NCBI RefSeq assembly: GCF_900890425.1
Contig: NZ_CAAHFG010000001.1
Span: 2,542,001-2,606,000 of the forward strand
From: Pontiella desulfatans
Lineage (GTDB): Bacteria; Verrucomicrobiota; Kiritimatiellia; Kiritimatiellales; Pontiellaceae
Length of the DNA: 64,000 bases
Direction: 5' to 3'
In this document: in pieces, positions 6,301 through 62,068 of the stretch
Position numbering within the stretch: position 1 is the first letter of the stretch
How the letters are laid out: each line of letters starts with the position of its first letter
Notes under the pieces: generated by a model
The model's database searches: none
The model's input: the letters and a program-made list of their open reading frames with translations, nothing else
What the model was told of the DNA's origin: nothing
Position numbers and translations under genes: made by a program

Positions 6301-6430
6301 ACCAGAACACATAAGGCTTCACCCCATCCGGCGGATTCTGAAACAGTTTTGCCAGATCGGCGATTTCAGCAGACAGAGCCCCACCCGCGAGCGCCATCAT
6401 CAAAACAACTGTTGCCGCAAACCTCTTCAT
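3302..6430 (-). CDS. GH106-type alpha-L-rhamnosidase
   Basis: 1042 aa with a signal peptide (about 1-20). The N-terminal block (FQNPPDGVKPYVFWYWING, DLEAMHEAGIGGAMIF, YNSPAGWSSSGGPW) is typical of GH106, whose known members release L-rhamnose. The C-terminus carries a jelly-roll-like sugar-binding fold with VVNLWPNRMIGDEQLP, shared with the GH106 at 25746-28622. Its ATG overlaps the upstream stop by one base (TAATG), so translation is probably coupled to the acetylesterase before it. It is expected in the periplasm or on the surface. The family is clear; specificity and linkage are inferred. Confidence 0.88.
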   Translation of the reverse strand: MKRFAATVVLMMALAGGALSAEIADLAKLFQNPPDGVKPYVFWYWINGNISREGLAADLEAMHEAGIGGAMIFNIGGHSPAGPVRVMSPEWRELMKFAMLRANELGLKISLYNSPAGWSSSGGPWITPELSMQEVTWSELQLEGGKTFSGQLPQPATKLGYYRDIAVLAFPTPGNECAGVYRPAVRLEGRETDIGALLDSDRNSWQELKAMGKKAVRVELEFAHPVDIRSFSMTPRFYRTIPPGKLFASDDGKKWSEVLSFQADKRKFAQVNDVFPQRHEPYWRIEFSDKVELAEINLGPAYRIPDWTGKAMFDWWGLDKPGQTDAALAPTDREMISREQMIDLTGRMDAQGHLNWTVPAGNWTLLRFGHTSTGMRLMPALEGQGGGLECDKLRPDVLDLHWKNAMQPWIDDEEVGDLFQAVHIDSYERHNQNWTAAMPDWFQERNGYAITPFLPALTGRVVGGLQESERFLWDFRKTVTGLMHEHYFGRMQQLCEKNGKQLSIENYGQHQFNTVTVGGIADVPMCEVWTTHNPDLFLYTSRRWSTKLASSPAHVYGKPIVQCEVNTDIRGDWNSDFEALKRDVDATFCGGVNRMVFHVYVHQPWDDLVPGQTLAVFGTHFERSNTWWGQMPGFTRYISRAQLLLQQGRFMADLLYCSGENVPNAGLELAGPLAPPPGYDYDVCDPYVVMNRLRVEDGDLVLPDGVRYRMLILPDEPYRTPGFAARIKELVAEGAMVVTNTPVVDVVGQMGLTPDFFTDSGQPIHHIHKQIAGQDVYFIANPSEQQLTLNATFRVEGAPELWNPLTGEIRVLPEFQAHSGVTVVPMQFAPKQSFFVVFKKGKTTPTGEHNFYALNPIAALGGGWNVEFHFRDSPSKRVTFQTLQDWCKRPEPELKYFSGTATYSKAFDLPKAVSGKPLYLDLGKVKNVAEVRLNGKELGTIWCAPWRVEISEAIRAKENQLEIDVVNLWPNRMIGDEQLPADCDYKPGGWALLKEWPQWYVENKPRTSGRKTFSTFKAWHKTSPLLESGLIGPVTIQVAESR

Positions 6431-9400
6431 TAACGCGTTTCCACGTCCAGACGAAGGAACAGGTTTTTATCGGCAGGATCAAATGCTTTGTCAATTTCCC
6501 GCAACGACCCGTCCACTTCGTTGGTTTTCACCGCCGGAAGGTCGACCGGAATCCACGAAGGCGAAATCAGATTGGTGGAGGCCAGAACGCGATAATTCGC
6601 GTCCAGTCCGCTGCGATTCGGATGCGTAAAAATCGCCTGCCCGTTCGCTATTGTCAGCCGGACCGGACGACCGGCATCCAGGATATCCGTCGGGTTGCCA
6701 CCCAGCGCATATTCCTTCCAGTTGCTCACGCCGTCGCCATCGGGATCTTCGGTCTCGGAACCCACCGGTGTCGGCCATTGGCCGGCCCAGTGATCGTAGG
6801 CCGACAGGCCGACGAGAAGCGTGCCGCCGAGATCGGCATAATAGTCGGAATGCACCCCGGCAGCGGCGAGCGCGACAGCATCGTAGCCGCCGTTCGGCAG
6901 ACTTATGAGCTGCGCCGGGTTGGCGGCCGACGGCATGCTGACCGCCGCGAAGGTGATGGTATTGACCAGCTGATAGACGGGAGCACGAACGGGGGTGGCA
7001 CCGCCCGTGAATGTGAGTGAGGCCTGCGGATAGCTCTGATTAAACTGAACCCCCAGATGCGCGTTATCGCCTCCTGAATTATGCAGTAAAAATGTCCCGC
7101 TGAATCCGTCGTCCGATCCGCCGAACACGACGCGCTGCCCATCGGTCGTGAACGCCTCAACGGTCAGTTGCCCCGTACCGCTCAGCGACGCATTCAAGTC
7201 GAGATCTCCGGTAATATTCGACAGCTTTGAATCGTTGGTAACCGTCATCTGGCCGGTAAGCACAGAGTGCGAACCGCCGGACCGATGCTGAAAAACTCCA
7301 CCATCCAGAATCAGTGTACCAATCGATCCGCCGCCTTTCACAAACAGCGAAGTACCGCTCATCAAACGAAGCGATCGGCCCTGGAATTCCCCCTTGTCTC
7401 CGAGCGCATTCAGCCAAACTCCACTTTTGTCATAGACATAATCATTGGTGGAAACCGGAACAGCGGCGGACGTGCCCCAAATGGCGTCGTTCCAGCCAAG
7501 GTGGGTTGCGGTGGGCGTCGCCGGATTCATTGAAACCGGTCCATTCGGCTCGGGATCAACCGCCTCATCCGGAATGGTGCACACATTGGAATAATAGACA
7601 TCCCGCGGAGCCTCGATGCGCAGGTCGGCCCCATAGAGCCCGCCGCCAAGCCGGGCATCATCGAGCGGAATCGAAATACGCCGCCAGGTTTCGGTTCCCG
7701 TCATGTGGATGAGCCCGGCGGTTCCATTGCCGGCGGTTCCGTTGTACAGCACGGCGATCACCCCGGGGCCGTCATCATAAAAGTCGATCGAAATCGTCTG
7801 GCCCGGCGCCTGGCCGTTGCGTAAATCTACGTGTCCCGCAAAAAAGTGGATTGCACGCGTTCCATAATCGCCGAGAGAGGCCCGGATAGCTTCACGCCCT
7901 CCAATGATCTCGGTGGTTACCACGCTGTATTCCGGTTGGTCGTCCAGCGTTGCGGTCACGGCATGGGCGGGAAGATCTTCCGTGGCGACACTGTCGATGA
8001 ACGGCCCCCGGAAGATCGGCATATCAAAGGTATCGGTGCGGAACGGCGCGGCCGGCAACCCATCGCTGTTGGCGAGGTTCGCCAACGGAAAGTTGGCCCA
8101 GGCATAACGGACAGCGACCGGGGCGGGAACGGAATCGCTCCAGACCTCGACGGTGTTCGCATCCGTAATAACCGCATTGGCTTCGACAAAGTTCTGGTCT
8201 GCGCCGCAAATCATAAAGCCGACCAGCTCGTTGGTATTGGCCACATGAGCATCCGGATCGGTTCCGGGTTCCAAACCGGTGTTGTCATTCATGGCCACAT
8301 ACGCCGACTTCAGCCCGGTTCCGACTTCGGAAAAATCGAGTTCAACGCGACTGCCGCTGATCTGCATCGACTCAAATTCCGGAAATGAATCCGTGCTCAG
8401 CAACCCCATATCCTGCAAAACCCTGTCGGCCAGGCGCTCGCCGACCGGAACCTTGTCGTGCGGATGAATATTTCGGAATTCGCCCAGGTCTGTCGTGACA
8501 ATGCGATGAACATTCGTTTCACCGGCGGCCTGCTCCTGCTCTTCGCGCAGCCAGGCCCACGACTCTTTCACCGGGTCATAAGGTACGATTCCATATGGCG
8601 CCAGCTGCACGGTGTAGAACGGCAGATCGGGCTGACCGAAACGCTCACGCCAGGATGAAACCAGCGCGCTGTAGAGTTCATCGTAGCGACTCATGGTCGG
8701 GTGCCCAGCATTAGACTCCCCCTGATACCAGATGACGCCTTTAATCGGTAGGCGGCGCAGCGCGTGAATCATGCCGTTGTAATAACCGCACGGTTGCCTG
8801 CGCGCATCCAACCCGCGGTCGGGCGGAGCCTGCAGGGCACTGAAGCCCAGCTCCGTCAGCGCCTCGGCCGGAATCCACGGCACAATCTGTGAGCCGCCGA
8901 CCGCGCTTTCGATCAGGCCGACCGGTACACCGACTTCCGGCTGCAAGCGGCGACCAAAACACATGCCGACTGCGGAGAAGGCGAAATAGGACTCATCCTG
9001 AGGAATAACCCACGATCCATTGAAGGCCGAGTTCAGCCCGGTCACATCCTCCTGTGGCGTCGCCGCAAAATCTCCCTTAACGGAATAGAGTCGAATCAGC
9101 GGATTGGAAAAGTTTTCGTTGGTGAAGCTGGCCTTTACGAATGAATACTGATTCACCGAGGTATCCATGTTCGACTGCCCGCCGCAGAGCCAGACGTCGC
9201 CGACGAGGACATCGGCTATTGACGATTGAAGATTGCCGACTGAAGACTGAACGCTCAAGGACTGCCCGGTTGCATTGGCGGTCATTGGATTAAGATCCAC
9301 CTGCCAATCCCCGTCCACATCCGCCACGGCCGCGTTGGTTTGCCCGTTAAACATCACCGTCACGGTTGCCCCGGTGTTCGCCGTTCCAAATACCGGAATG

Positions 9401-10311
9401 GATTCACCGCGCTGCAGCACCATATGTTCCTTGAACAGGGCGTCCACTTCCAACAGGGGCGCAACCTCATCCGACATCGCAACGACCGTACGATCCTGAT
9501 CCGCATCATAAGAAACCTGAAGCACCCCGCCCTGCGACGAGACCATGCCCGCCTCAATCCATCCCTCAGCCAGCGCAGTCCGGTCGCCGCTAAGGATCAT
9601 CTCAGAAGCTTCATCCGTAAAAATAATGCCGTCATCGCCGCCACTGAGCGTGATATTATTGGTCAAATAGCCGACCCCGCTCTGCAGTCCGCCATTAAAC
9701 CCCAGCTTTAGATCCCCGCCATTTAAATAGACCGCCGCCGACCCACCTGCCGTGCAGTACAGGTCGAGCTCCGAATAGATATTCAGCGTGCCGCCATTGA
9801 TGTTGTAGATAAAATCGACATTGAGGTTGTTCCGTCCTCCCTGGGCAATTTTCAGCACGGTATTGGCCGAGGTGTGGTTCACAGACAGGTTTCCACCTGC
9901 GATGAAGTTGCCGGTCGATTGTAGGTTACCGCTCACATTCATCGTTCCTGTGGCATCCCAACGATTACCCTGAGCATTGAATGTCCCAAAGACATTGAGG
10001 GTTCCGCCATTAACTTCCTGAGCGGTATCCGAACTCGCGATGGAAAAAGAGTCCCCTACTGAAACCGTTAGTGCGGATCCGCTCTTGACCTCGAAATCAC
10101 CGACATTGAAGCTGGATCCTCCTGTTCTAACCGATGCATTACCATCAATAGAAAAAGAATCAGCCGTTGTATAAAGTGAAGAGTCAGGATTCCAGTTGTC
10201 CGCATCCCCGAAATTAATCGTACCGGCTCCTCCGTCCCACGTATACACCTCTGCCTGAACACCGGTGGCGGCCAGCATCACCATCAGCCCGATCATCATT
10301 CGCTTCATCAA
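6430..10311 (-). CDS. Multimodular surface sialate-type O-acetylesterase
   Basis: 1293 aa, unusually long for this esterase family. Order: signal peptide (1-20); N-terminal beta-rich module (about 22-285, ending DGIIFTD and a WI-containing strand); SGNH-type acetylesterase of the SASA family (about 290-800; GQSNMD near 378 with the nucleophilic Ser, QGESNAGHP, and NIHPHDK as the likely Asp-x-x-His); a jelly-roll-like stretch; a C-terminal module (about 935-1168) matching the sulfatase at 969; a calcium-loop-like DPDGDGVSNWKEYALGGNP (about 1185); and the conserved tail YRVLASTNL...LFLRLDV. The esterase would remove O-acetyl groups from the glycan. The first module is nearly the same at DNA level as the PEP-CTERM gene at 15960. 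It is coupled to the GH106 downstream. Confidence 0.88.
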   Translation of the reverse strand: MMKRMMIGLMVMLAATGVQAEVYTWDGGAGTINFGDADNWNPDSSLYTTADSFSIDGNASVRTGGSSFNVGDFEVKSGSALTVSVGDSFSIASSDTAQEVNGGTLNVFGTFNAQGNRWDATGTMNVSGNLQSTGNFIAGGNLSVNHTSANTVLKIAQGGRNNLNVDFIYNINGGTLNIYSELDLYCTAGGSAAVYLNGGDLKLGFNGGLQSGVGYLTNNITLSGGDDGIIFTDEASEMILSGDRTALAEGWIEAGMVSSQGGVLQVSYDADQDRTVVAMSDEVAPLLEVDALFKEHMVLQRGESIPVFGTANTGATVTVMFNGQTNAAVADVDGDWQVDLNPMTANATGQSLSVQSSVGNLQSSIADVLVGDVWLCGGQSNMDTSVNQYSFVKASFTNENFSNPLIRLYSVKGDFAATPQEDVTGLNSAFNGSWVIPQDESYFAFSAVGMCFGRRLQPEVGVPVGLIESAVGGSQIVPWIPAEALTELGFSALQAPPDRGLDARRQPCGYYNGMIHALRRLPIKGVIWYQGESNAGHPTMSRYDELYSALVSSWRERFGQPDLPFYTVQLAPYGIVPYDPVKESWAWLREEQEQAAGETNVHRIVTTDLGEFRNIHPHDKVPVGERLADRVLQDMGLLSTDSFPEFESMQISGSRVELDFSEVGTGLKSAYVAMNDNTGLEPGTDPDAHVANTNELVGFMICGADQNFVEANAVITDANTVEVWSDSVPAPVAVRYAWANFPLANLANSDGLPAAPFRTDTFDMPIFRGPFIDSVATEDLPAHAVTATLDDQPEYSVVTTEIIGGREAIRASLGDYGTRAIHFFAGHVDLRNGQAPGQTISIDFYDDGPGVIAVLYNGTAGNGTAGLIHMTGTETWRRISIPLDDARLGGGLYGADLRIEAPRDVYYSNVCTIPDEAVDPEPNGPVSMNPATPTATHLGWNDAIWGTSAAVPVSTNDYVYDKSGVWLNALGDKGEFQGRSLRLMSGTSLFVKGGGSIGTLILDGGVFQHRSGGSHSVLTGQMTVTNDSKLSNITGDLDLNASLSGTGQLTVEAFTTDGQRVVFGGSDDGFSGTFLLHNSGGDNAHLGVQFNQSYPQASLTFTGGATPVRAPVYQLVNTITFAAVSMPSAANPAQLISLPNGGYDAVALAAAGVHSDYYADLGGTLLVGLSAYDHWAGQWPTPVGSETEDPDGDGVSNWKEYALGGNPTDILDAGRPVRLTIANGQAIFTHPNRSGLDANYRVLASTNLISPSWIPVDLPAVKTNEVDGSLREIDKAFDPADKNLFLRLDVETR

Positions 10312-10353
10312 ACTGCTCCTTAATTCAAAATAAATTTTATCGTCTGCGTCACG

Positions 10354-12309
10354 TTACTCAGGAATCACATACACACCGCTCACATGGAAATCCCGGAAGC
10401 TTTCCAGACGAATGTCGGCACCATTGCAGCGACCGGCAAATCGGGCGTCTTCCAGCTCGACCGAGAAACGCCTCCACTCCCCGCTGCCTTTTATCTCGAT
10501 TATCCCTGCAGATTTCCAAGGTTTGGAAATCGAATCATATTTGAGTTCGATGGTGCCGGGGCCGTCGTCCAGATAGTTCACCACAATCGTCTGCTTCGGA
10601 TGCTTCCCTTGACGCAACGCGCTGTCGCGATCCTCCGCGTAGAAATACGCCATCCGCATCACCGTTTCCACATGGTTCACCCGCAGGGCATCACGCCCCT
10701 GGATAATCTCCGGCGTCAACAGGCTTTCGTCCGATTTTTTCATGGCGGCACACCGCACGGCACCGGCAGGCAACGGCTCATCGGCCGAACGACGTTCCAG
10801 AATAGGTGCGCGAAAAATCGGCATCGGGAAATCGTCCGTACGGAAGGGCGAAGCAGGCAATCCGTCGCTGTTCGCGAGGTTGCACAGCGGAAAATTTTCC
10901 CAACCATACCGAACAGCAATCGGCTCGCTGACGGCATCGCTCCAGACCTCCACGGTATCCGCATCCACAATACGCGCCTGCGCCGGAACAAACTTTTCAT
11001 CCGCACCGCAAATCGTAAAGCCGGCCACTTCACCGGCCTCAACAACGAACGCCTCCGGGTCGGTTCCGGGAGCAAGTTTCGCCTTATTATTCATGGCAAC
11101 TCGCTCGGGTTTCAATCCGTTCCCGACGTTGGAAAAGCTAACCTGAACGCGCCCTTCGCTGATCCGAAAGTTTCCAACCATTGGAAAACCGGGGGAGTCG
11201 ATCAGGCTCATGTCACGCAGGGCAATGTCCGCCAACCGTTCACCGACCGGCCGTTTATCCGCAGGATGAATATCAACGTATTCGCCCAGATCCGTAATCA
11301 CCGCGCGACCGGTATGCGGCATGGAGAGCACGGACTCCTGGGCCTCGCGAATAAACGCCCACGACTCACCCGACTGATCCCATCCCGTGCGGCCATACGG
11401 CGCAAGCTGAACAAAGTAAAACCGCATTTCGGACAGACCGAAGGCCTCGCGCCATGAAGAAATCAATCCTTTGAACAGCTGGTCGTAACATACAATGGAC
11501 GGATGCCCCGCATTGCTTTCGCCCTGATACCAAATGACGCCTTTGATTGGCAAACGGCGCAACGCGTGGATCATTCCATTGTAGTATGCACAAGGCTGAT
11601 TACGCCCGTCCACGCCCCGGTCTTGCGGCGCCTGAATTGAACCGAAGCCCATCGACTCCAGCTTTTCCGCCGGAATCCAGGGCTGAATCTGCGATCCACC
11701 TACCGCACTTTCAATCAACCCGATCGGCACCCCGCTCTCTTGCTGGAGCCGCAGCCCGAAACACGTCCCCACGGCTGAAAAATGAGAAATCGCTTCGCTG
11801 TCCGCCTCTTTCCAGGTCGAAAAAACAGGATCACTGCTGACTGTATCTTTCGGACAGGGTTCAGCCTTCATCTCCACAACAAACAGGCGCAGTTTTGAGT
11901 TGGATACCCCGGACAATTCTTTTTTCAAAAACGGATAGCTATTGATCGGCGTATCCATATTCGACTGGCCTCCGCACAGCCAAACATCACCGATCAGGAC
12001 ATTGGAAATTTGAGACTTGAGACTTGAGGCTTGAGAAAAAACGGATAGCGGCTGCCCTGTTGCATCGGCCTTCATCGGAGCCAGTTCCACCTGCCATTCG
12101 CCATTAGCACCCGCGAGCCCTGATTGCTTTTGGCCGTTGAATTCAACCATTATCTCTTGGCCGGGTGTTGCGGTTCCGAATACAGGAATCGGTTTATTCC
12201 GCTGCAGCACCATGTTATCCATGAACAGCGAATCGAGCTTTAGAGCGGAATCGCTGTAGCCCCCTATTGCAGCCAATACAATCGTCCAGATAAAAACGTG
12301 TCGTCTCAT
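10354..12309 (-). CDS. Sialate-type O-acetylesterase
   Basis: 651 aa with a signal peptide (about 1-20). It is a stand-alone paralogue of the esterase domain in the next gene downstream. It has VLIGDVWLCGGQSNMDT with the nucleophilic Ser, GVIWYQGESNAGHPS, and DIHPADKRPVGERLAD as the probable Asp/His pair. A C-terminal jelly-roll (DDGPGTIELKYD, GSGEWRRFSVELEDARF) is also shared with the paralogue. It lacks the beta-rich modules and the conserved tail of that protein. The 42-base gap to the next gene suggests one operon. Tandem duplication followed by fusion or loss of modules is inferred. Confidence 0.9.
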   Translation of the reverse strand: MRRHVFIWTIVLAAIGGYSDSALKLDSLFMDNMVLQRNKPIPVFGTATPGQEIMVEFNGQKQSGLAGANGEWQVELAPMKADATGQPLSVFSQASSLKSQISNVLIGDVWLCGGQSNMDTPINSYPFLKKELSGVSNSKLRLFVVEMKAEPCPKDTVSSDPVFSTWKEADSEAISHFSAVGTCFGLRLQQESGVPIGLIESAVGGSQIQPWIPAEKLESMGFGSIQAPQDRGVDGRNQPCAYYNGMIHALRRLPIKGVIWYQGESNAGHPSIVCYDQLFKGLISSWREAFGLSEMRFYFVQLAPYGRTGWDQSGESWAFIREAQESVLSMPHTGRAVITDLGEYVDIHPADKRPVGERLADIALRDMSLIDSPGFPMVGNFRISEGRVQVSFSNVGNGLKPERVAMNNKAKLAPGTDPEAFVVEAGEVAGFTICGADEKFVPAQARIVDADTVEVWSDAVSEPIAVRYGWENFPLCNLANSDGLPASPFRTDDFPMPIFRAPILERRSADEPLPAGAVRCAAMKKSDESLLTPEIIQGRDALRVNHVETVMRMAYFYAEDRDSALRQGKHPKQTIVVNYLDDGPGTIELKYDSISKPWKSAGIIEIKGSGEWRRFSVELEDARFAGRCNGADIRLESFRDFHVSGVYVIPE

Positions 12310-12346
12310 TAATATTTTTCCTTAATGCTATCCCTTGCTACGGGAA

Positions 12347-12366
12347 CACCGAATTGGAATTCGGTG
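12347..12366. repeat. Short perfect hairpin between two glycan genes
   Basis: CACCGAATT and AATTCGGTG form a 9-bp stem with a 2-base loop in the 93-base gap between the GH-A gene and the acetylesterase. No T run follows on the transcribed strand, so an mRNA-processing or repeat hairpin is more likely than a terminator. Confidence 0.5.
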
Positions 12367-12402
12367 CTACGCTCTTCCACAACATGGCTGTCGCCTCTGA
12401 CA

Positions 12403-15400
12403 TCAGCGGTCGATGCGCAGGCGGATAAACTGTTCATCTTCGCCCGCTGGAATGGAGTTCGTGACTGAAACAAAAGCCCCGTCCATGGAGCCGGTCTCGA
12501 TTGATGAGGGCAACAGCTGAATCCAATTGGTGGAAGTCAGATCACCGGTCGCTTCCAAGCGATAGGATAACGCGGGATCGTTCGTGCGCTGGACATGCAC
12601 ATACTGGAACTGCGATCCCTCATAAGCGAACTCAGGCACGATGCCCCTGCATTCGAAATCAACGGGAATGCCGCCCAATGCGTATTCGCTGAAATTGATC
12701 TCCCCGTCACCATCATAGTCGTTTGTCCATGATCCAATGTCCCCATTCCAGCCGGCCGCCCAAAAAGCATAGGCATCCTGCTCGCCAACCAACTCGAGAA
12801 TGACGACCGTGTCAGGTTCCATACTGAATTCAATGGTGTATTCATCCGAACCGGCATTCGTGACCGTCACTTCCGGCGCAGCGGTCAAATTGAAGTTCGC
12901 CTCAGCCAAAGTTTTGTAACTCTTCCCGCTTGTCCAGTTATCGTAGATGTAATTTTTCCCGGGAACCCCAGCCATCTGGTAGAGCTGGCCTACCGGCTTG
13001 TGCGGCAGGTCATACGCAGCGTACAGGAACCCTTCCTCATCGTAATCATCCCGGACAATATCGTAGATGGCGGTCGAACGGTTGTATTTGATCCATTGGG
13101 CATCCGGGGTTTCCGCCAGGGTACAGAAGGACTTCGGCAGGGTGATGCGGACGGTTTCCGCCGTCTGCTCAGCGCGGTTGGTATTAAAGGCCGAAACCCC
13201 CAGCAAGAGGCGTGATCCATCGGGGCTCCGCGATGCAACCGCCTTGCGTACGGTTCCAACGGCAGAGCCGCCGGTTTCCTCAAGAAGTGCAACTTCGCCA
13301 TTATCAAAAACCTGCTTGAGCATGTGCATCGACCAAAGTTGTCCGGCCATCAGTTTGTGTTGCTCGTCCTTGAACTTTTCCAGTTCGCCACGCCACCACG
13401 TGCCCGATTTTTCCACGTTCATAACCGTGAAGTTAAGCAGCGCGTTGAAATGCATCACCGCACCGCGGGCACCTGATTCGTAGCTGGACAACCCGGTCTC
13501 ATCGGCCGTGGTTCCATATTCATGAACTTCGCGGATGAGGTCTGGGTGATACTCCTCGGATGCCTGGTAGAACCGATTGAGATTGGCGGCCATGATGTCA
13601 GGATCCTGCGCGTCCTGAACAAAGTAGAACGAAGCGCTCGCCCAATCAAAGGCCGTGCCGGTCTTACCGGTTTTTGCATTCACTTCATCACGGCAGTGCT
13701 GCGCCAATACATCATAATTGACATTGCCAAATGTTCCGCTGAATTTGGCCGCCCCCAGCTCATTGTAGGCCCCAACCTGTGCACCCGGAAGCACACTCTT
13801 TACGGCTGCGGCGGTATAGTCGTAGTGATCGAAAAACTGGGCTTCTGTGCCGCTCCAGCGCTGCGGCCAGTCCGACTCTGTTCCAACCCGGAACCGCAGA
13901 CGGTTGGCCGCCTCTTCGCCCAACAGATTTCGGAGATGCACACAAGCCGCCTGCACGACCACATACCACTCATCAAAACTGGCTTCGGGCGCACGCTGGC
14001 CATAGGAACCCCCGTCCGGAACAGTCGGCAGGCACCAATTTACGTTGTCGAGCACGATCATCATGTTGGCGTAACCCTGGTCGATATACGGTTGCAGCCG
14101 GGCGGTGATCCGATCCGGACGGCAAACCAGCGTGCCATTTGTGCGGACAACAAAATCCTCATCATACATCGGGTTGCCGTCGCCATCCTGCAGGCCACCG
14201 AGCACACGGACAAAAATGATTTCGTCCACCCCCGGAACCTCTTCGGCATACGGTCGTTTTTCAAATGGTAAGGAAAGCGACAGATCGGTCAAGTAATCGG
14301 GAATGACCGTAAGGCGCCATCCGTCAGCGGAATTCGGCGCCACCGAGGCCGACACCCGCCAAAACGGCTCACGGCTTCCCAGATAATGAAAGCCGTTCCA
14401 TCCATCAGTTTCCACAACCGTCAGGCCGGATGAATATGAAACCTGAAGCATGCCGCACTCGGAAGAGAGAGCACCATCGGCAATCCAGGTTGCAACGTCG
14501 CTACTGCGGTCACCTTCAAGCTCCAACCGCGAAAGGCTGGACTTAAAAATGATCCCATCATTTCCATCCAAGGGGAGTGCGGAGTAGTCATAGGCCACTC
14601 CGCTTTTAATCTGCATAAGCCCACCGCCAAGGTGAATCGCGGTTTCGTTCAGCGTATGACCACGCAAGGTTATTCCACCGGTTGCAACGTACGTCCCGCC
14701 GCCATTGATACGAAGCACCTGCCGAACCGGCTCCAGGGAGCCTGCCGTTGCCCCGAATCCGGTAAGCTGGTGCTCCAGCAAACCGTTCACCTCGAGCCGC
14801 AGCCCCTGCTGGGTGCCGGAATCAAAGTTGCCGGAACCAATGAGCCGTCCGTCTATGGTAACCAACCCGCCGTCCATCGTTACCGTATCCGTTGATTCCG
14901 TCATCAGGACAGCGCCGCGCTCAACCGTGAACCCGTCGGGAAGGTGAAAGGATTCAACCTCCGGCGGCACGGAGACCGCCGTTTCATCTGCATCGGAGTC
15001 ATAGTGAACCCCCATTGCGCCGACTTCCGAAGAGAGCGCACCATCGGCAATCCACAACGCCACATCGACCTGGCGGTCGCCCTCCAGCACCAATGTGGAA
15101 CCGGGGCTTTTAAAAATGATGCCGTCGTCGCCATTCATCACCAGATCGGTGTAGGTGTAGCTGACGCCGGCCTCCACAACCATGGTTCCGCCGCACAGCT
15201 CAATAGCTGCAGTGTTGTTTGTATGCGAACGCAGCACAATGGCTCCAACCGCGCGGTAGGTTCCACCATCCAGAACCCGCATTCGCTGAACACGGGGCGA
15301 GGATCCGGCAACGGTTGCGCCAAAGCCGGACAGTTTGTGCCGGAACAACCCCGTCACATTGATTTCCGTGTTCACCTGCTGGCCGCCATAAAAATTTCCA

Positions 15401-15801
15401 CTGCCGGTCAATTCACCTTCGACGTTTACAATGACCTGTCCACCCACCCCGCTTGTATCCCATCGGTTGCCCCCGAAATCGAGCGTTCCATAGACGTTCA
15501 ACCGCCCTGATTTCAGATCGGTGGCATTGTTCTGGTTAATCGTCAGCGTACTGCCCCGATCAACCTGCAGCACGGAACCGCCATCCACGTTGAACGCAGC
15601 CACAGAAAGGTTGCTGCCGATAATTGCATAGGCTCCGCCGTCGAGCTGGAACTCATCAGCCGCGGCAAAGGCGGATCCGCCCGGCACCCAGTTCATCTGA
15701 TCAGCAAAGACGGCCGTATTCGCTTCACCGTCCCATGTGTACACAGCAGCACCGGCACTAATTGCCAAGCAAACCAAATATACTGGAATCCAAATCTTCA
15801 T
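12403..15801 (-). CDS. Modular clan GH-A glycoside hydrolase (GH39-like), secreted
   Basis: 1132 aa. Signal peptide (1-18) is followed by two copies of the beta-rich module (about 19-265 and 290-460; both contain DGIIFKS and WIADGALSSE). A TIM-barrel-like catalytic part (about 465-1000) follows, with AYNELGAAKFSG and LIREVHEYGTT as candidates for acid/base and nucleophile Glu. The end carries DYDGDGEINFSEYALGGIP and the conserved tail YRLEATGDL...FIRLRIDR. The barrel resembles GH39 or a related clan GH-A family, but I cannot fix the family by eye. It is 93 bases upstream of the acetylesterase and probably cotranscribed with it. The substrate is unknown; context suggests a deacetylated rhamnose-rich glycan. 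Confidence 0.72.
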   Translation of the reverse strand: MKIWIPVYLVCLAISAGAAVYTWDGEANTAVFADQMNWVPGGSAFAAADEFQLDGGAYAIIGSNLSVAAFNVDGGSVLQVDRGSTLTINQNNATDLKSGRLNVYGTLDFGGNRWDTSGVGGQVIVNVEGELTGSGNFYGGQQVNTEINVTGLFRHKLSGFGATVAGSSPRVQRMRVLDGGTYRAVGAIVLRSHTNNTAAIELCGGTMVVEAGVSYTYTDLVMNGDDGIIFKSPGSTLVLEGDRQVDVALWIADGALSSEVGAMGVHYDSDADETAVSVPPEVESFHLPDGFTVERGAVLMTESTDTVTMDGGLVTIDGRLIGSGNFDSGTQQGLRLEVNGLLEHQLTGFGATAGSLEPVRQVLRINGGGTYVATGGITLRGHTLNETAIHLGGGLMQIKSGVAYDYSALPLDGNDGIIFKSSLSRLELEGDRSSDVATWIADGALSSECGMLQVSYSSGLTVVETDGWNGFHYLGSREPFWRVSASVAPNSADGWRLTVIPDYLTDLSLSLPFEKRPYAEEVPGVDEIIFVRVLGGLQDGDGNPMYDEDFVVRTNGTLVCRPDRITARLQPYIDQGYANMMIVLDNVNWCLPTVPDGGSYGQRAPEASFDEWYVVVQAACVHLRNLLGEEAANRLRFRVGTESDWPQRWSGTEAQFFDHYDYTAAAVKSVLPGAQVGAYNELGAAKFSGTFGNVNYDVLAQHCRDEVNAKTGKTGTAFDWASASFYFVQDAQDPDIMAANLNRFYQASEEYHPDLIREVHEYGTTADETGLSSYESGARGAVMHFNALLNFTVMNVEKSGTWWRGELEKFKDEQHKLMAGQLWSMHMLKQVFDNGEVALLEETGGSAVGTVRKAVASRSPDGSRLLLGVSAFNTNRAEQTAETVRITLPKSFCTLAETPDAQWIKYNRSTAIYDIVRDDYDEEGFLYAAYDLPHKPVGQLYQMAGVPGKNYIYDNWTSGKSYKTLAEANFNLTAAPEVTVTNAGSDEYTIEFSMEPDTVVILELVGEQDAYAFWAAGWNGDIGSWTNDYDGDGEINFSEYALGGIPVDFECRGIVPEFAYEGSQFQYVHVQRTNDPALSYRLEATGDLTSTNWIQLLPSSIETGSMDGAFVSVTNSIPAGEDEQFIRLRIDR

Positions 15802-15959
15802 AAATGCACACGAGCTAAGCAGGGTTAGCCGCTTTTGGGCAGAAAAATGTCAAGGAACCCTATCCGACACAATCGGTGCGGATATGATCAAAAAAAACTA
15901 TAACCATGGCCGAGGCCAGAAAAGGCACCGGTGAACGGCACCCTTTGCCCGGGGCATCT

Positions 15960-16889
15960 TTAGACCAGCATAAAGCGGCGAACCGTTAGAATGCCGATCC
16001 CTAAAAAAGAGATGAGCCCAATCGTCGCCGGTTCGGGAATCGTGACATAGGTGCGGTTGAGATCGGAATCGTATGAGACCGTCATATCCCCGACGGTGGA
16101 GGAAAGTGCGCCGTCAGATATCCATTGGTTCACCAACATCTGCTTGTCGCCATTGACAATAAGCTCGGAAGTCGCATCCGTGAAAATGATTCCGTCATCG
16201 CCGCCGTTCAGCGTCAGGTTATTATAAAGGTACCCCTCATAGCCGCTTACCCCCGTATTCATGCCCCCATTGAATCCCATCTTCAGGTCGCCGCCATTCA
16301 AATAAACCGCAGCCGAGCCATCCGTTGTGGAAAAGAGGTCGAGTTCGGAAAAAATATTCAGCGTTCCACCGTTGATATTATATCCAAAGTCCCGGGCGAA
16401 ATTTGAATTTCCCCCCTGGGCAATTTTTAAAACCGTGTTGGCTGACGTATGGTTCACAGTAAGGTTTCCACCTGCGATAAAGTTTCCGGTCGATTGCAGG
16501 TTACCGCTCACATTCATCGTGCCGATGGCATCCCAACGATTACCCTGGGCATTGAATGCCCCAAAAATATTGAGGGTTCCTCCGTTAACTTCCTGAGAAG
16601 TATCCCCACTCGCAATGGAAAAAGAGTCCCCTGCCGATACCGTTAGCGTTGATCCGCTCTTGACCTCGAAATCGCCGACATTGAAGCTGGCTCCTCCGGT
16701 TCTAACCGATGCGTTTCCATCAATAGAAAAAGAATCAGCCGTTGTATAAAGTGAGGTATCGGGATCCCAGTTTGCTGCATTGCCGAACAGATCGGTTACT
16801 GCTCCGCCGTCCCATGTATAGGGCGTAGCGTTTACCATACCCACCGCAAAGATGCCAACGATTGTACTTAGACATGTCCATTTTTTCAT
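15960..16889 (-). CDS. PEP-CTERM protein with one beta-rich module
   Basis: 309 aa: signal peptide (1-21), one beta-rich module (about 22-280: TWDGG, NGGTLNIFG, YLNGGDLKMGFNG, DGIIFTD, WISDGALSS), then the sorting signal PEPATIGLISFLGIGIL followed by RR (285-309). PEP-CTERM signals are cut by exosortase in bacteria with exopolysaccharide systems; no exosortase gene is in this window. The module is nearly identical at DNA level to the start of the acetylesterase at 6430-10311. It has no enzyme domain, so a structural or glycan-binding surface role is inferred. Confidence 0.85.
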   Translation of the reverse strand: MKKWTCLSTIVGIFAVGMVNATPYTWDGGAVTDLFGNAANWDPDTSLYTTADSFSIDGNASVRTGGASFNVGDFEVKSGSTLTVSAGDSFSIASGDTSQEVNGGTLNIFGAFNAQGNRWDAIGTMNVSGNLQSTGNFIAGGNLTVNHTSANTVLKIAQGGNSNFARDFGYNINGGTLNIFSELDLFSTTDGSAAVYLNGGDLKMGFNGGMNTGVSGYEGYLYNNLTLNGGDDGIIFTDATSELIVNGDKQMLVNQWISDGALSSTVGDMTVSYDSDLNRTYVTIPEPATIGLISFLGIGILTVRRFMLV

Positions 16890-16946
16890 CTGTTTCTCCT
16901 TTTAAAATTTAAGCAGAAGCCGGCCGCCATGACCGGCCTGACCCAA

Positions 16947-18803
16947 CTAATCTTCCAGAATTACCCTGAAGAATTCCTGCAGTTCGTCCGTGCTGTTCGT
17001 AACACACATGGTTACGCCCATGCCCACGACATTACTGTAAACCGGCGTCCAGGATCCGTTTACCAGATCAGGGGTTGATTCCACGGCATAAGAAGCCCCA
17101 TTCGATGCACCCCAGCACAGGACATAGTCGCCGCCCGGCAGGATCCCGAAATCAACATCGCCGATTTCCGTAGGCGCGGTGTAGATTTCGACTACCGTTT
17201 CGTCTTCAACCGTGTCATACGAAACCAGCATATCGCCAACTGTAGAAGAGAGAGCTCCGTCGGCAATCCACGTCGCAACCAGAGTCGCATTACTTCCGTT
17301 CACATACAGAGTGGAGGCGGTATCCGTAAAGATAATGCCGTCATCCCCGTCATGAAACGTAAGGGCACCATAGTTATATCCCAATCCCCCGCTGTATCCC
17401 ATGGTCAGATCACCGCCGTTGAGATAGATGGCTGCCGCAGCGTTGGTCACAGAGAGAAGCGTTACGCTATGATGAATATCGAGCGACCCCTCATTGAGGT
17501 TATAGACAAACTGTTGCGGAAATGCAGGATTCCCACCACCGGCAGAAGCAATCTTCAACACGGCATCATCCGATGTGTGGTTGACCGTCAGCGTATTTGC
17601 AAAAAAGTTTCCCTTCGAAGCAAATTTGCCGTTGATATTCAATACATTGGCACCCTGCCCGAAAATATCCCACTTCAACGTGCCGGAATTCCATTCCCCG
17701 TCAATCGTCAGCGTGGATCCGCCCTTTATGACGGTCTCGGCATTCTTGTCGATACTGAGGAAACCACCTTCTGAAACCGCCAGGGATGCACCGTTATCCA
17801 TGTCGATCTGACCAATAAAGAACGCGTTGCTGCCCGTGGCAACACTCACCCCGGAAGTGATTGCATAATCATCATCAATCAGGAACGCGGCTCCGGCCGG
17901 ATCCCAGTTATCGGCATCGCCAAAGCTCTGGGCATCACCACCGCCATCCCACGTATAGGAACCGGACAAGGCTTCGAAGGTCGTCACAATCGTATTGGTT
18001 CCGTTGTAATTAACATCAAGCGCTCCGACCTGGGTAGAAAGCGCGCCATCGGCAATCCAGGTATTTACTGTGGTGGTCTTGTTGCCTTGAACAATCAGGG
18101 TTGAATTCGTGTCTGTGAAAATAATACCATCATCGCCGCCCGTAAAATTCAGGCCGGAATAATTGTAAACATCTCCGATCGATGGACCGTTGAATCCAAT
18201 CTTCAAATCCCCGCCGCTCAGATAGATGGCTGCAGAACCGCCGGCGGTTGACTGCAGTTTCAACTCCGAGTAGATGTTCAGCGCACCTTCGTTGATCGTG
18301 TATTTAAAAATCCGGTTGGCACCGGGACTGCCGGCCGCCGAAAATTTCCAGATCGTATTTGAAGAGCTGTGATTGACCGTCGTATCTCCGGCGGTCGCGA
18401 AATGGTTACCCCGCGAAAAAAAGTTGCCGGTCACATTAAAGACATTTGATCCAGACCCAAGATCCCAGCGCTTACCATTCGTATCAAACGTCCCATCCAC
18501 ATTCAGCGTGCCATCCGACATCGATGTCGCAATATTATCATTGATTTTAATCGAACCTCCGGCAGCAATAGTCAGTTCCGCCCCGTTTTCGAGGTCAAAC
18601 TGGCCAATATCGAAACTGTTCGTTCCCGTTGTCACCGAAACGGCGGTATCGATCAGAAAATCATCGGTAATCCCGTAGGAAGCGCTCGGATTCCAGTTGT
18701 CGGTATCACCGAAGCTCGCCCCATCACCGCCGCCATCCCACGTAAACTGAGCCTGAGCCGCTGAAACCACCAATATGAATGTATATATGATCCACTTTTT
18801 CAT
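16947..18803 (-). CDS. Secreted protein with two tandem beta-rich modules and conserved tail
   Basis: 618 aa. A signal peptide (1-18) precedes two tandem copies of the module found in the neighbours (about 19-265 and 285-540; each starts TWDGGGD and ends with WIADGALS). The C-terminus is not PEP-CTERM but the alternative tail SYAVESTPDL...WTPV...EFFRVILED. No catalytic motif is seen. It is the first gene after an operator, 36 bases upstream of the ATG, with TTGACA and TACAAA 16 bases apart as promoter boxes and AAGGAGAG as ribosome site. It probably heads the unit running down to 3302. A surface glycan-binding role is inferred. Confidence 0.8.
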   Translation of the reverse strand: MKKWIIYTFILVVSAAQAQFTWDGGGDGASFGDTDNWNPSASYGITDDFLIDTAVSVTTGTNSFDIGQFDLENGAELTIAAGGSIKINDNIATSMSDGTLNVDGTFDTNGKRWDLGSGSNVFNVTGNFFSRGNHFATAGDTTVNHSSSNTIWKFSAAGSPGANRIFKYTINEGALNIYSELKLQSTAGGSAAIYLSGGDLKIGFNGPSIGDVYNYSGLNFTGGDDGIIFTDTNSTLIVQGNKTTTVNTWIADGALSTQVGALDVNYNGTNTIVTTFEALSGSYTWDGGGDAQSFGDADNWDPAGAAFLIDDDYAITSGVSVATGSNAFFIGQIDMDNGASLAVSEGGFLSIDKNAETVIKGGSTLTIDGEWNSGTLKWDIFGQGANVLNINGKFASKGNFFANTLTVNHTSDDAVLKIASAGGGNPAFPQQFVYNLNEGSLDIHHSVTLLSVTNAAAAIYLNGGDLTMGYSGGLGYNYGALTFHDGDDGIIFTDTASTLYVNGSNATLVATWIADGALSSTVGDMLVSYDTVEDETVVEIYTAPTEIGDVDFGILPGGDYVLCWGASNGASYAVESTPDLVNGSWTPVYSNVVGMGVTMCVTNSTDELQEFFRVILED

Positions 18804-37285: not shown

Positions 37286-37598
37286 TGACCGCGAAGGCGC
37301 GAAGGAAGGGAGATCTTTGTTTCTTAGGTTCTTCGTGGAATTTTGTGGGGATAAATGTGCCAACGGCACAAAACAATTTAGCATGGGGCGAAGCCCTATG
37401 GTTCGGGGCATCCCCCTGTTTCTGCCCTGTAGGGGCAGCACAACTGCCGTCTTGTGTTGCCCATTCAGGGCAAATATTTCTCTTTCGCCAGACCCCTTGG
37501 ACTGCGTCCAAGGCTAAGTTGTGTTGTGCCGTTGGCACATGAGCTATGGATTGCTCCCATAATCTACGTAGACCCGTTTCTTAGCGTCTTTGCGGTCA
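37286..37598. repeat. Outer inverted-repeat element, split by an inner one
   Basis: TGACCGCGAAGGCGCGAAGG (37286) is mirrored at 37575-37598 by the reverse complement TGACCGCAAAGACGCTAAG. The two arms are about 265 bases apart and enclose the 186-bp palindromic element below. The stretch 37185-37285 between IS21 and this repeat shows nothing recognisable. Confidence 0.6.
37355..37540. repeat. MITE-like element with 28-bp inverted ends
   Basis: 186 bp. The left arm (37355-37382) starts ATGTGCCAACGGCACAAAAC, and the right arm (37513-37540) is its reverse complement with few mismatches. The middle holds short hairpins (GCCCTATGG.., CTGCCCTGTAGGGGCAG) and no gene. Non-coding, inverted ends and nesting in another palindrome suggest a miniature transposable or REP-like element. 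Confidence 0.65.
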
Positions 37599-37667: not shown

Positions 37668-38072
37668 TTACAGCATGATCCGGCGGCGGACAAAGAGAAT
37701 ACCAAGCCCCGAGGCCGCAATCATCCCCAATGTCGCCGGCTCCGGGATGACGTCTACCGCTATGCTAGCCAGGCTGACATCGTCACTACTGCCGCTACCA
37801 CCATGTACGAAAGCAAACTGCATTCCATCTGTCAGAACCGTATTAACAGACACAGCCGTTGTATCCGTAGCTGAAGCCACAGCAGTTGCACCACCGGCCT
37901 GAGTGAACAACGACAGCGGTATGGAGGCGTTATCAACAATGCCGGCGGTAAACTCGGTAAGACGTAACGAGTAGCCATTAGAACTCAAGTAAGACTGCAA
38001 CGCAGAGTCTATGCTGACAGTATAAAGGAGCGCTTCACCCTTTCGCATTGCTCCATTGGAGGCGTCTACCAT
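37668..38072 (-). pseudogene. PEP-CTERM protein, 3' part (interrupted by IS3)
   Basis: The C-terminal 133 codons of a secreted protein, ending PEPATLGMIAASGLGILF and RRR: a PEP-CTERM sorting signal. The frame runs straight out of the IS3 end. Removing the IS and one CAT copy joins it in frame to the N-terminal part at 39454-39792 (NGLM then VDASNGAM), giving a 246-aa protein. It ends at a strong terminator. Function before interruption: small exported surface protein of unknown role. Confidence 0.88.
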
Positions 38073-38144
38073 TGCGCTTAACCCCGATTTTCGGACCACC
38101 GGCTTAAGTGGAACCTGCGTCCTCAACATGGTACAAAAGGACGC

Positions 38145-38429
38145 ATGGAAATGGGAAGAAAACGAAGAACATTCACGGACAAGTTCAAGGCCAAGGTGGC
38201 GATTGAGGCCATCAAGGGCGTGAAGACATTGGCGGAGCTGGCATCGGAATATCAGGTCCATCCGAACCAGATTTCGGATTGGAAGAAGCAGTTGCTTTCG
38301 AATGCGCCGGATCTTTTTGCATCGGGGAAAAAGAAGCAGGCTCAAACGGAAGAAGAGCTTACGGCTCCACTTTACGAAGAGATCGGGCGTCTGAAGATGG
38401 ACGTGAAGTGGCTCGAAAAAAAGCTATGA
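38145..38429 (+). CDS. IS3-family OrfA (helix-turn-helix)
   Basis: 94 aa: GRKRRTFTDKFKAKVAIEAI, LAELASEYQVHPNQISDWK (helix-turn-helix) and a C-terminal leucine-zipper-like helix. It ends with GAA AAA AAG CTA TGA. The heptamer A AAA AAG (38417-38423) is a classic slippery site for the -1 frameshift that makes the OrfAB transposase. OrfA alone usually acts as a DNA-binding regulator. Confidence 0.93.
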   Translation: MEMGRKRRTFTDKFKAKVAIEAIKGVKTLAELASEYQVHPNQISDWKKQLLSNAPDLFASGKKKQAQTEEELTAPLYEEIGRLKMDVKWLEKKL

Positions 38430-39271
38430 GCCTGCCGCTTTCAACGCGCCGCAGCTGGGTGGAGCCCGGCACCGATTATTCGGTTCGGCGGCAGTGTAGG
38501 CTCGCAGGCGTCCCCAGATCGGGCTTCTACTACGACCCCGCCCCGGAAACGCCGGAGAACCTGCTTCTGATGCGTTTGATCGACGAGCAGTATCTCCGGC
38601 ATCCGGAGTTCGGCTATCCACGCATGACGGACTGGTTGCGTGATCAAGACTATGATGTCAATCACAAGCGGGTCGCCCGCCTCATGCAGCTGATGGGGAT
38701 TCAGGCCATCACGCCCGGTCCGCACACGAGCAAGCCCGCCCCGAGGCACAAGATCTACCCTTATTTGCTGCGCAATGTGGACATCGAACGGGTGAACCAG
38801 GTTTGGAGTACGGACATCACCTACATCCCGATGCGGCATGGATACATGTACCTGACCGCCGTAATCGACTGGTACAGCCGCTATGTGCTCGCCTGGGAGC
38901 TCTCAAGCACCATGGAGAGCACGTTCTGCGTTGATGCGCTGGAGCGTGCGCTGACGCAGGGGAATCCGGAGATATTCAACACCGACCAAGGAAGCCAGTT
39001 CACCTCGAACGCCTTCACCGGTGTCCTGTTAAACGAGAACATCACCATCAGCATGGACGGGCGAGGCCGGGCGTTGGACAACGTATTCATCGAACGACTG
39101 TGGTGGTCGGTGAAGTATGAGAAAATCTATCCCGCATGCTATGCCGACGGGCATGCGTTGCATCGGGGCCTTGACAGCTATTTTAAATATTACAACCACG
39201 AGAGGAAGCACAGCGCTCTGGACAAACGCACCCCCGCCGAGGTATTCATGGAAGGAGCAGTCAGAACATGA
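38426..39271 (+). CDS. IS3-family OrfB transposase (DDE)
   Basis: 281 aa from the ATG that overlaps the orfA stop (ATGA); the frame is also reached by -1 frameshifting. The integrase core has Asp130 (WSTDITYIP), Asp187 (NTDQGSQFTS) and Glu223 (FIERLWWSVK), all three DDE residues intact. It is full length. Bases 39272-39453 carry GC-rich repeats and the right end. Confidence 0.95.
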   Translation: MSLPLSTRRSWVEPGTDYSVRRQCRLAGVPRSGFYYDPAPETPENLLLMRLIDEQYLRHPEFGYPRMTDWLRDQDYDVNHKRVARLMQLMGIQAITPGPHTSKPAPRHKIYPYLLRNVDIERVNQVWSTDITYIPMRHGYMYLTAVIDWYSRYVLAWELSSTMESTFCVDALERALTQGNPEIFNTDQGSQFTSNAFTGVLLNENITISMDGRGRALDNVFIERLWWSVKYEKIYPACYADGHALHRGLDSYFKYYNHERKHSALDKRTPAEVFMEGAVRT

Positions 39272-40224: not shown

Positions 40225-42690
40225 TTATTTTTCAACCTCGAGGTTAATGAACAGCGTGTCGTCGACGATGCTGTAGGTGTTGGTCACCGGGGCATAGTCA
40301 TCGACGACCGGTCCGGTGCCCGTTACAGTATTGTTGTTGGTGCCGAACGGTCCAACGGTCAGACTCGTGGTGTCGATCAAACGGTAGACCAAAGCGCTGT
40401 CGACCGAGTTCGAGGCATAGACATAGGTAAACGTCGTGCCATCCTGGCTGAGGCTGGTCTGTCCTCTGTCGGCCGCGTTGGTCGGGTTGCCGTTGATGGC
40501 ATACTCGCCGAGGTTGCTGACGCCGTCGTCGTCGTCGTCGCCTTCCGGCCCTTCATTCAGACCATACTGATCCGCGAAGGCATTGTAGCCGCTCAAGATT
40601 TCAACAATATCGATCGTCAAGGTTCCCAGACGGTCCGCATTCATCCATGCGAAGGTGTCGCCGTCTTCAACCACGATCGCCCCTTCCTCACCGCCCGTCA
40701 GAACGGCCTCGCCGGCGCCCGAAACGCCCGTCGCCACATCGAAGTTGCGCCGGTACAAGGTACCGGCTCCGCCGGTGACCTCCTTGATGACCAGGCTGGT
40801 TCCGGCCGCGTTGGTGAACCCGCTCAGGTCGAACTGGATCAGGATGGCTTCGCCAGGATTAATGGCAAGGGACCCCGAGACATCCTGGACGCCCGTTCCG
40901 TCATCCGACGAGTTGAATAAGCCGGTGGTGCCTTCAAAGGTATTGGTCAGGTCGCCGCCGCTCCAGGTCAGCGGCTGGAAATCGTCGCTTCCGTCGTTCA
41001 AGGGTCCGTCATCACTGTAGGCGCGCCCTTTGATCACGATCTTCCCGGTGGCGGTGGACACCGTGAAACTGTCCTTGGCCGCAGAGGAGAGGCCGGCCCC
41101 GCCGAACGAGGCAGAGGAGTTGGCATAGGAGACCGGATCATTTCCGAGATCGCTCAAGGTGATGGTCTGCGTCCCGCCGGCTCCGCCGCTTGCGCTCCGG
41201 AAGTCGATCAGTACCGGGCCGATGGCCGGTTCCGCGGCGACTGCCGCGCTCAGGGCGGATTCGTTGGCACCGGTGTCCAGTTGCGAAACTTTGTAGTAGT
41301 AAACCACGTTGTTCGTCACATCGTTGTCGGTGTAGGCGTTGGTCGTCACAGTGGCAATATTCGAGTAGTTGACACCCGACTCGAGGCTGCGCCAGACGTT
41401 GAAGCTGGCGAACAGGTCATCAATCGAGGCATCCCAATCCAAAGCTACCTCCTGATTGTCAGGCACCGCCGCCAGGCCTGTCGGCACGGGGACGGCCGGC
41501 GTGGCGGAAACTTCCGCACTCAGGGCGGACAGGTTGCTGTTGGAGTCCACCTGCTGAACTACGTAGTAGTTGGCGGTGCCGTTGATCAAGTTGGTGTGCG
41601 TATAGGCGCTGGCCGTCAGGTTGGAGGCGATGACCACGTAGTTCGTACCCGACTCTTCGCTGGACCAGACCATGAAGCTGGCGAACAGGGGATCGGTCGA
41701 GTTGTTCCAGTCCAACGCCACCTTCGTATTGAGCGGCGTTGCCGACAGGCCCGCCGGTACGGGAATGGACGGCGTGCCCGAAACCATGTTGCCGAAAGCG
41801 GTTTCGACACTGTTGGTGCCGACGGCTTTTGCCTTGTAGTAGTAAGTCACCCCGTTGGTGACAGCCAGATCGGTGTATGCGCTGTCGACCGGACTGGCCA
41901 GAAGCGCGAAATCCACTTCGTTGGAGGTCAGCGAGCGGTAGAGATCGTAGTGGTCGAGCATAATCGGGTTCGGATCGTCGTCCCAGTTGAGCGTAAGCCG
42001 GGAGTTGTTCGGGGTGATCGCGAGCTGTGGGGGCACGTTGGTCGACGGCAGGTCAACCACATCGACGGTCAGTCTGGTCACTCTGAAGCCTCCAGCAACT
42101 CCGGCATAGTACAGGCGATAACTGCTGTTCAGCACCTGCCAGTCTCCAAAACTGCCGGCTCCTTTGCTTACTCCATATTTGGACTGAACCACTTTATTCG
42201 CATTGGTATCGACGAGCACCCAGTCGCCGGAACTGCCGGACGCATTTGCAGTAGCTGTGGAAACCAGCGTGAGCACCGATCCGGCCTGCAACCCGCTCAC
42301 ATCGAAGTCAATAATCATCACTTCGCCTGAATTGATCTTGTTATCGTTGACTCCGCCAATATCACCCGCATCATAACCAACGTTCTGTCCGTACGTGAAA
42401 TTTGTCGCATAACTGTTAAAATCCGCGTGGCTTGCTTGGGCATTTGCCCTGCTCCACCCCGTGGCCCCGGTAAGGGTCCACGAAATGACATCGCCCGCCT
42501 GGGCATCGGTAAACGAGCCGGTGTTGGTCGCTATGCCGCCCGCCACTGTTACGTTTGTGCCGTCATAACCAAAGCTATATAACTGGCTCACGTCTCCTGA
42601 GCTACCCACAGTATACGTGGCGATTTGCGCCTGCGCGCCGATCGTTGTGGCCAACAGGGCCGCGAATAGTGCTATTCCTTTTATTTTCAT
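40225..42690 (-). CDS. Secreted protein with three fibronectin type III domains
   Basis: 821 aa. Signal peptide (1-21), an N-terminal beta domain (22-220), three fibronectin type III repeats (about 225-500; each with LDW and YYYK/YYVV strands), a second beta domain (about 505-690), an acidic calcium-loop-like GDDDDDGVSNLGEYAINGNP (about 700) and the alternative tail VYRLIDTTSL...LFINLEVEK. No catalytic motif is seen. It ends at a strong terminator and shares an upstream direct-repeat site with the split PEP-CTERM gene. A surface scaffold or adhesion role is inferred. Confidence 0.8.
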   Translation of the reverse strand: MKIKGIALFAALLATTIGAQAQIATYTVGSSGDVSQLYSFGYDGTNVTVAGGIATNTGSFTDAQAGDVISWTLTGATGWSRANAQASHADFNSYATNFTYGQNVGYDAGDIGGVNDNKINSGEVMIIDFDVSGLQAGSVLTLVSTATANASGSSGDWVLVDTNANKVVQSKYGVSKGAGSFGDWQVLNSSYRLYYAGVAGGFRVTRLTVDVVDLPSTNVPPQLAITPNNSRLTLNWDDDPNPIMLDHYDLYRSLTSNEVDFALLASPVDSAYTDLAVTNGVTYYYKAKAVGTNSVETAFGNMVSGTPSIPVPAGLSATPLNTKVALDWNNSTDPLFASFMVWSSEESGTNYVVIASNLTASAYTHTNLINGTANYYVVQQVDSNSNLSALSAEVSATPAVPVPTGLAAVPDNQEVALDWDASIDDLFASFNVWRSLESGVNYSNIATVTTNAYTDNDVTNNVVYYYKVSQLDTGANESALSAAVAAEPAIGPVLIDFRSASGGAGGTQTITLSDLGNDPVSYANSSASFGGAGLSSAAKDSFTVSTATGKIVIKGRAYSDDGPLNDGSDDFQPLTWSGGDLTNTFEGTTGLFNSSDDGTGVQDVSGSLAINPGEAILIQFDLSGFTNAAGTSLVIKEVTGGAGTLYRRNFDVATGVSGAGEAVLTGGEEGAIVVEDGDTFAWMNADRLGTLTIDIVEILSGYNAFADQYGLNEGPEGDDDDDGVSNLGEYAINGNPTNAADRGQTSLSQDGTTFTYVYASNSVDSALVYRLIDTTSLTVGPFGTNNNTVTGTGPVVDDYAPVTNTYSIVDDTLFINLEVEK

Positions 42691-55777: not shown

Positions 55778-55802
55778 CTTCTTTCCCCTTATGCTCCGGA
55801 AA

Positions 55803-55828
55803 GGAATCCCGCACTGAAACGGGATTCC
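55803..55828 (-). terminator. Hairpin between two secreted-protein genes
   Basis: GGAATCCCG and CGGGATTCC form a 9-bp stem with an 8-base loop, followed on the minus strand by only TTT. It may be a weak terminator or a stabilising mRNA hairpin in the 66-base gap. Confidence 0.42.
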
Positions 55829-55843
55829 ACTTCCTTTTGAGAT

Positions 55844-58828: not shown

Positions 58829-58950
58829 CTGTTTTCCTCCTGATTGCGGGGTTGACTATACTTTCTTTTTTACCACAGCCCTGATCCGTGCGAACGAACC
58901 ACAACCTTCCTCTGATGATCTATGTCTACACCCGACCTGAAAATCTGTCA

Positions 58951-58970
58951 TGTCGCCAATACTGGCTACA
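58951..58970. promoter_or_regulatory. Dyad regulatory site and promoter, copy C
   Basis: TGTCGCCAATACTGGCTACA, with 7 of 8 bases in each arm paired. On the coding strand it is followed by TGACA, 17 bases and TAGACA. It lies upstream of the large unknown secreted protein. Confidence 0.66.
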
Positions 58971-58989
58971 AGGCCTGTCACCGCTGTCG

Positions 58990-62034: not shown

Positions 62035-62068
62035 GCTCACAGCCTATTGCGAGCCAGAGAATCCGTCA

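Follow-up and report, generated by a model that had tools for sequence, protein, structure and literature searches.

The window is a 64,000-nucleotide stretch of the genome of the marine bacterium Pontiella desulfatans. A module of some 255 residues is common to four neighbouring open reading frames on its minus strand (6430, 12403, 15960 and 16947, named by their lowest position; Table 1). One of them, 15960, encodes a PEP-CTERM protein, and two of its three module-bearing neighbours are enzyme-like. The module is N-terminal in 6430 and in 12403, makes up the entire ectodomain of 15960, and occurs as two tandem units in 16947. The enzyme part of 6430 matches PF03629 (79.9 bits against a gathering score of 24.8, E 3e-22), so that the acetylesterase label given in a preliminary description of this DNA can be specified as a SASA-type esterase. 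The match of 12403 to PF01229 (GH39) reached 15.4 bits, below the gathering score of 26, and the region is no more than GH39-like; all its matches to GH39-like and alpha-1,4-rhamnosidase-like models were weak, so that any catalytic label for 12403 is tentative. Since a paralogous SASA esterase between these two genes lacks the module, the module acts like a detachable accessory unit.

Table 1. Features of the module-bearing genes and of a second matched set, in window positions.
Feature	Position	Strand	Evidence
CTD ('EYALGGNP' type) of 6430	6433–6810	minus	profile A2, 199 bits
Module copy in SASA esterase (gene 6430–10311), residues 21–281	9469–10251	minus	blastp and profile, 395 bits
Paralogous SASA esterase without module	10354–12309	minus	54% identity with the esterase part of 6430; no module
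CTD of 12403	12406–12783	minus	profile A2, 216 bits
Second, truncated module copy in 12403	14416–14955	minus	189 bits
First, full module copy in 12403 (gene 12403–15801), residues 19–282	14956–15747	minus	370 bits
PEP-CTERM sorting tail of 15960	15963–16040	minus	TIGR02595, 17.2 bits (cut-off 16); also in genome scan
Module copy as the ectodomain of PEP-CTERM protein 15960 (gene 15960–16889)	16032–16826	minus	402 bits; structure model
Short C-terminal domain of 16947, like the second half of the CTD	16950–17159	minus	inspection of C-terminal ends, no profile
Second module of tandem protein 16947	17160–17966	minus	393 bits
First module of tandem protein 16947 (gene 16947–18803)	17979–18752	minus	377 bits
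Second matched set with another module: PEP-CTERM gene 54740–55777 and client 58990–62040	54740–62040	minus	41% over 180 aa, E 8e-28

The four reading frames lie where the preliminary description places them, and the sharing of one module among them, already proposed there, was confirmed by blastp and by a genome-wide profile search. Of the six copies claimed there all were recovered, five of them full and one partial, with E values of about 1e-12 to 1e-133. The partial one is the second of 12403, which is cut down to about 180 residues and lacks the TWDGG start. The copies of 6430 and 15960 are the closest, with 71% identity over 286 residues (E 5e-133) and 78% identity at the DNA level over 675 nt. 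Each half of 16947 is 46% identical to 15960 (E 1e-73), the first copy of 12403 35% (E 1e-44) and its second copy 31% (E 6e-15). The six-row alignment has 28 invariant columns, which include WI, DGIIF (the first D and GIIF) and many glycines.

The surroundings form a polysaccharide-degradation region with three GH106 and two GH78 genes, several sulfatases, an aldose epimerase, a GH43-like gene and a LacI-type regulator. Because GH106 and GH78 rhamnosidases lie close to sulfatases, the target is probably a sulfated rhamnose-rich polysaccharide. The description of P. desulfatans F1 (PMC7356697) reports 8.6 Mbp and 56 rhamnosidase genes and states that the 'substrate range may include rhamnans'. 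Elsewhere in the window, at 37668–38500, the reading frame of a PEP-CTERM gene is broken. ORF 37668–38345 has its first 92 residues within a repeated element with about 18 near-identical copies in the genome (94–100% identity), probably an insertion sequence, which stands between the PEP-CTERM gene and a CTD gene at 40225–42690. An Acido-Lenti-1 RNA match on the plus strand (37495–37539; 37.3 bits, just over the gathering score of 37) lies within an arm of an inverted repeat of 53 nt (37355–37407 / 37488–37540).

The module is confined to this locus. When the six-row profile was run against the whole genome (8,658,305 bases in 6 contigs), exactly six strong matches of 189–402 bits were obtained and the next scored 21 bits; strong copies were found neither elsewhere in the genome nor in 57 relatives. 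The expectation that the module would be widespread proved wrong, since among 388 genomes of the phylum a single full-length relative was detected (in genome G393, adjoining a SASA gene). The remaining matches in the phylum genomes mostly cover parts of the N-terminal half, and a pattern scan of contig sequences gave no relatives. In Pfam and NCBIfam, both searched to E 10, no family was found for the module beyond chance hits, and PDB sequences gave none either. The autotransporter-associated repeat PATR (PF12951) matched none of the six copies; it does match one unrelated PEP-CTERM ectodomain. The full-length relative in G393 ends in PPPYGTVIFIK and another relative (G246) in GPKGTLIEVW, and some small neighbours in the home genome end in degenerate PEP-CTERM-like tails. 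Judged by these sequences, such ends may represent an alternative short C-terminal tag.

Structure prediction was carried out with AlphaFold2 on the six copies and gave a model (pLDDT 80, pTM 0.82) that is mostly strand and has a single helix close to the conserved WI. The model supports a right-handed beta-helix, predicted with good confidence. The best structural matches are right-handed beta-helices, namely the adhesin Awp1 (Z 13.6 over 216 residues) and EspP (Z 13.6 over 196 residues), followed by SepA, Hbp, TibA (Z 12.0) and Ag43 (Z about 11). Foldseek returned no significant match in the PDB, re-alignment of its candidates led to the beta-helices, and the better alignments reach no more than 15% sequence identity, so the result gives a fold class and not a family. 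The beta-rich character noted in the preliminary description is thus supported, with adhesins and autotransporters as fold neighbours. The structure prediction called for there produced one beta-helix model for six copies; instead of the unrelated folds or mere linker named there as the adverse outcome, the copies align from end to end and keep W, G and DGIIF positions unchanged. A two-module model of the tandem protein, built on a shallow alignment to look for contacts between modules, had a pTM of 0.43 and no defined packing between the modules.

Protein 15960 consists of a signal peptide, a variable ectodomain and the PEP-CTERM tail with its PEP motif, transmembrane stretch and basic end. 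The genome encodes 98 PEP-CTERM matches and one exosortase (PF09721, 173 bits). The C-terminal domain (CTD) found in 6430 and 12403, where it has no Pfam or NCBIfam match, contains a calcium-site-like DxDxDG...EYALGGNP stretch and a short beta-rich end, and terminates more than 100 exported proteins. Profile A2 gave at least 135 CTD matches in the genome, with 150 of 308 candidates scored; the domain is also abundant in genomes G021 and G016. In 18 cases a PEP-CTERM gene starts immediately downstream of a CTD gene, compared to 0.6 expected.

This arrangement, one PEP-CTERM copy with module-bearing neighbours, is one case of a genome-wide rule that involves about 42 unrelated modules. Flanks of about 9 kb were taken to both sides of the PEP-CTERM genes, and each PEP-CTERM ectodomain was compared with all open reading frames in these regions. 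For 46 of the 98 ectodomains a homologue was found in a non-PEP-CTERM gene no more than 9 kb away; the count was 47 before overlapping self matches were excluded, and the permutation control run at 47 of 98 gave a mean of 1.2 and a maximum of 7. The 46 matched ectodomains fall into 42 families that are unconnected by blastp. There are 80 anchor–client pairs, 77 of them on the same strand, with a median gap of 90 nt, and 51 of 76 distinct clients end in a rough CTD-end pattern. The clients are largely polysaccharide-active enzymes; those examined comprise sulfatases, a sulfatase–GH43 fusion, SASA and GDSL esterases, AXE1, GHL15, laminin-G and cadherin-like proteins, and multi-module proteins. 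A second set with a different module is present in the window itself (Table 1). For about half of the home genome's PEP-CTERM genes no partner was detected by blastp, which would miss more distant homology. Curated carbohydrate-binding families matched neither the module nor any of the 41 matched ectodomains scanned.

The rule recurs in other genomes to a varying extent. In two congeners 23 adjacent CTD–PEP pairs were read, and a module was common to both members in 13 of the 23 (E<1e-4) compared to 6 of 506 mismatched combinations. In one set (C2_959569 / L149) the PEP-CTERM proteins of two species are 63% identical and each is 39–41% identical to its own client; since they are closer across species than to their clients, the pair was kept since before the species split. 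Outside the genus the rule is weak in one member of the Verrucomicrobiota (G312), where it holds for 5 of 17 PEP genes against a permutation mean of 0.3 and a maximum of 3. A class-level relative (G069) has 110 PEP-CTERM matches, many of them clustered, and 20 regions were sampled, in which no matched client was found for any of the 32 matches they contain.

The recurrence of matched sets suggests that each polysaccharide-degrading cluster has its own matched surface anchor. From this we infer the following scheme for surface anchoring, co-localisation and ligand, which we hold tentatively, at a little under an even chance. A locus-specific beta-helix would mark a co-localised set of exported proteins, in which anchor and clients gather through shared recognition, most likely of a glycan. 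Protein 15960 would be processed by the exosortase of the genome and placed on the cell surface or in exopolymer, as is deduced from the literature on the PEP-CTERM/exosortase system (PMC1569441). The SASA esterase, the GH39-like protein and the tandem-module protein carry the same module as clients. The modules of anchor and clients would recognise the same thing, most likely the target or the matrix glycan of the cluster, and the clients would thereby gather beside the anchor. The copy in 15960 would then serve to bind glycan at the surface, those in the clients would be the matching targeting modules, and dozens of other clusters may do likewise with unrelated modules. A beta-helix is, to our knowledge, not a usual CBM fold, which counts against the glycan part of this scheme, as does the failure of carbohydrate-binding families to match any of the 41 ectodomains scanned. 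The PEP-CTERM genes without a detected partner and the negative result in the sampled regions of G069 speak against the scheme as well. A surface-assembly role that brings enzymes together had been suggested in the preliminary description; it gains indirect support from the genome-wide pattern of an anchor plus neighbours with about 42 unrelated modules. A modular anchoring code in Pontiella-type bacteria, with one PEP-CTERM anchor per cluster and dozens of parallel, mutually specific enzyme assemblies per cell, is conceivable, with a probability somewhat below even.

The same genomic pattern would be expected if the modules of one cluster bind each other, with the exosortase-anchored copy capturing the clients and one specificity per cluster. 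Ag43 and TibA, which are known for self-association, are among the fold neighbours, and the tandem copies in 16947 would give multivalency. However, Ag43 is equalled in score by EspP, SepA and Hbp, for which no self-association role is implied, and many pairs have diverged to 28–45% identity. The two-module model shows no defined packing, but at a pTM of 0.43 and on a shallow alignment it says little either way. We consider such homotypic docking rather unlikely. A common ligand is favoured over it because the anchor has no other domain, because the modules differ between clusters with different enzyme sets, and because the members of a pair have often diverged strongly.

Two further explanations do without shared recognition. 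In one, N-terminal segments are exchanged within a cluster by unequal recombination, and local duplication and module shuffling alone account for the sharing, with no joint function. The local and lineage-specific character of the sharing and the persisting DNA identity between 6430 and 15960 agree with this, as does the presence of near homologues for 12% of size-similar control ORFs in the same regions. However, PEP genes whose C-terminal motif is clear reach 49%, a four-fold excess that shuffling must explain, as it must the pair maintained in two species with its anchors closer to each other than to their clients. Among 14 PEP–PEP gene pairs within 9 kb in the home genome no near homologues were found, which is weak evidence against duplication since only about one such pair is expected by chance; its use as a formal test was dropped for that reason. 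We consider shuffling without function unlikely. In the other explanation the beta-helix is a generic spacer that holds any attached domain off the cell without specificity. Beta-helices are common stalks in autotransporters, and EspP and SepA are among the fold neighbours, but a plain spacer would need no neighbour-by-neighbour matching, and the module is unique to its locus instead of being reused across the genome. We consider a generic stalk very improbable.

The components are of known kinds; their organisation by matched modules seems, as far as the literature searched goes, to be new. NCBIfam 'choice-of-anchor' domains combine one ectodomain with different C-terminal tails across species, whereas here the different tails stand side by side in one cluster; choice-of-anchor models did not match any of the PEP-CTERM proteins scanned. 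Pairing of an ectodomain with a client was not found in the literature searched, nor in the relevant sections of the PEP-CTERM paper (PMC1569441) and of two Pontiella papers. According to those sections of PMC1569441, PEP-CTERM ectodomains are numerous in a genome, highly diverse and rarely like anything known. A rule that ties the ectodomain to the module of an enzyme encoded next to it makes ectodomain function directly testable and offers a way of assigning ectodomains to substrates; the anchoring code, if true, would give them a general function. The rule might also explain how Gram-negative degraders of algal polysaccharides hold many enzyme sets on one surface, and could be a source of tethering modules that come in natural pairs.

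Several known systems resemble parts of this organisation. The tail, the exosortase and the dozens of PEP-CTERM genes are like those of the PEP-CTERM/exosortase (EpsH) system as presented in these sections of Haft et al. (2006, PMC1569441), which do not describe ectodomains paired with modules of enzymes encoded beside them. The passengers of autotransporters may be similar in fold (Z up to 13.6, for EspP, with no significant Foldseek match), but the beta-barrel translocator is absent from the proteins described here. Ag43 and TibA have the right-handed beta-helix that is predicted for the module (Z 11–12) at 8–13% identity, whereas the module proteins lack a translocator domain and use another anchor. 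The polysaccharide utilisation loci of Bacteroidetes may be similar in placing a non-catalytic surface glycan-binding protein beside the enzymes for one polysaccharide; here the anchor is another one and the putative binding protein is homologous to the enzyme module. The cohesin–dockerin system of cellulosomes is similar in principle, in that a code of modules brings enzymes to an anchored protein, but in Pontiella the partners of the putative binding are homologous modules and not two different domains.
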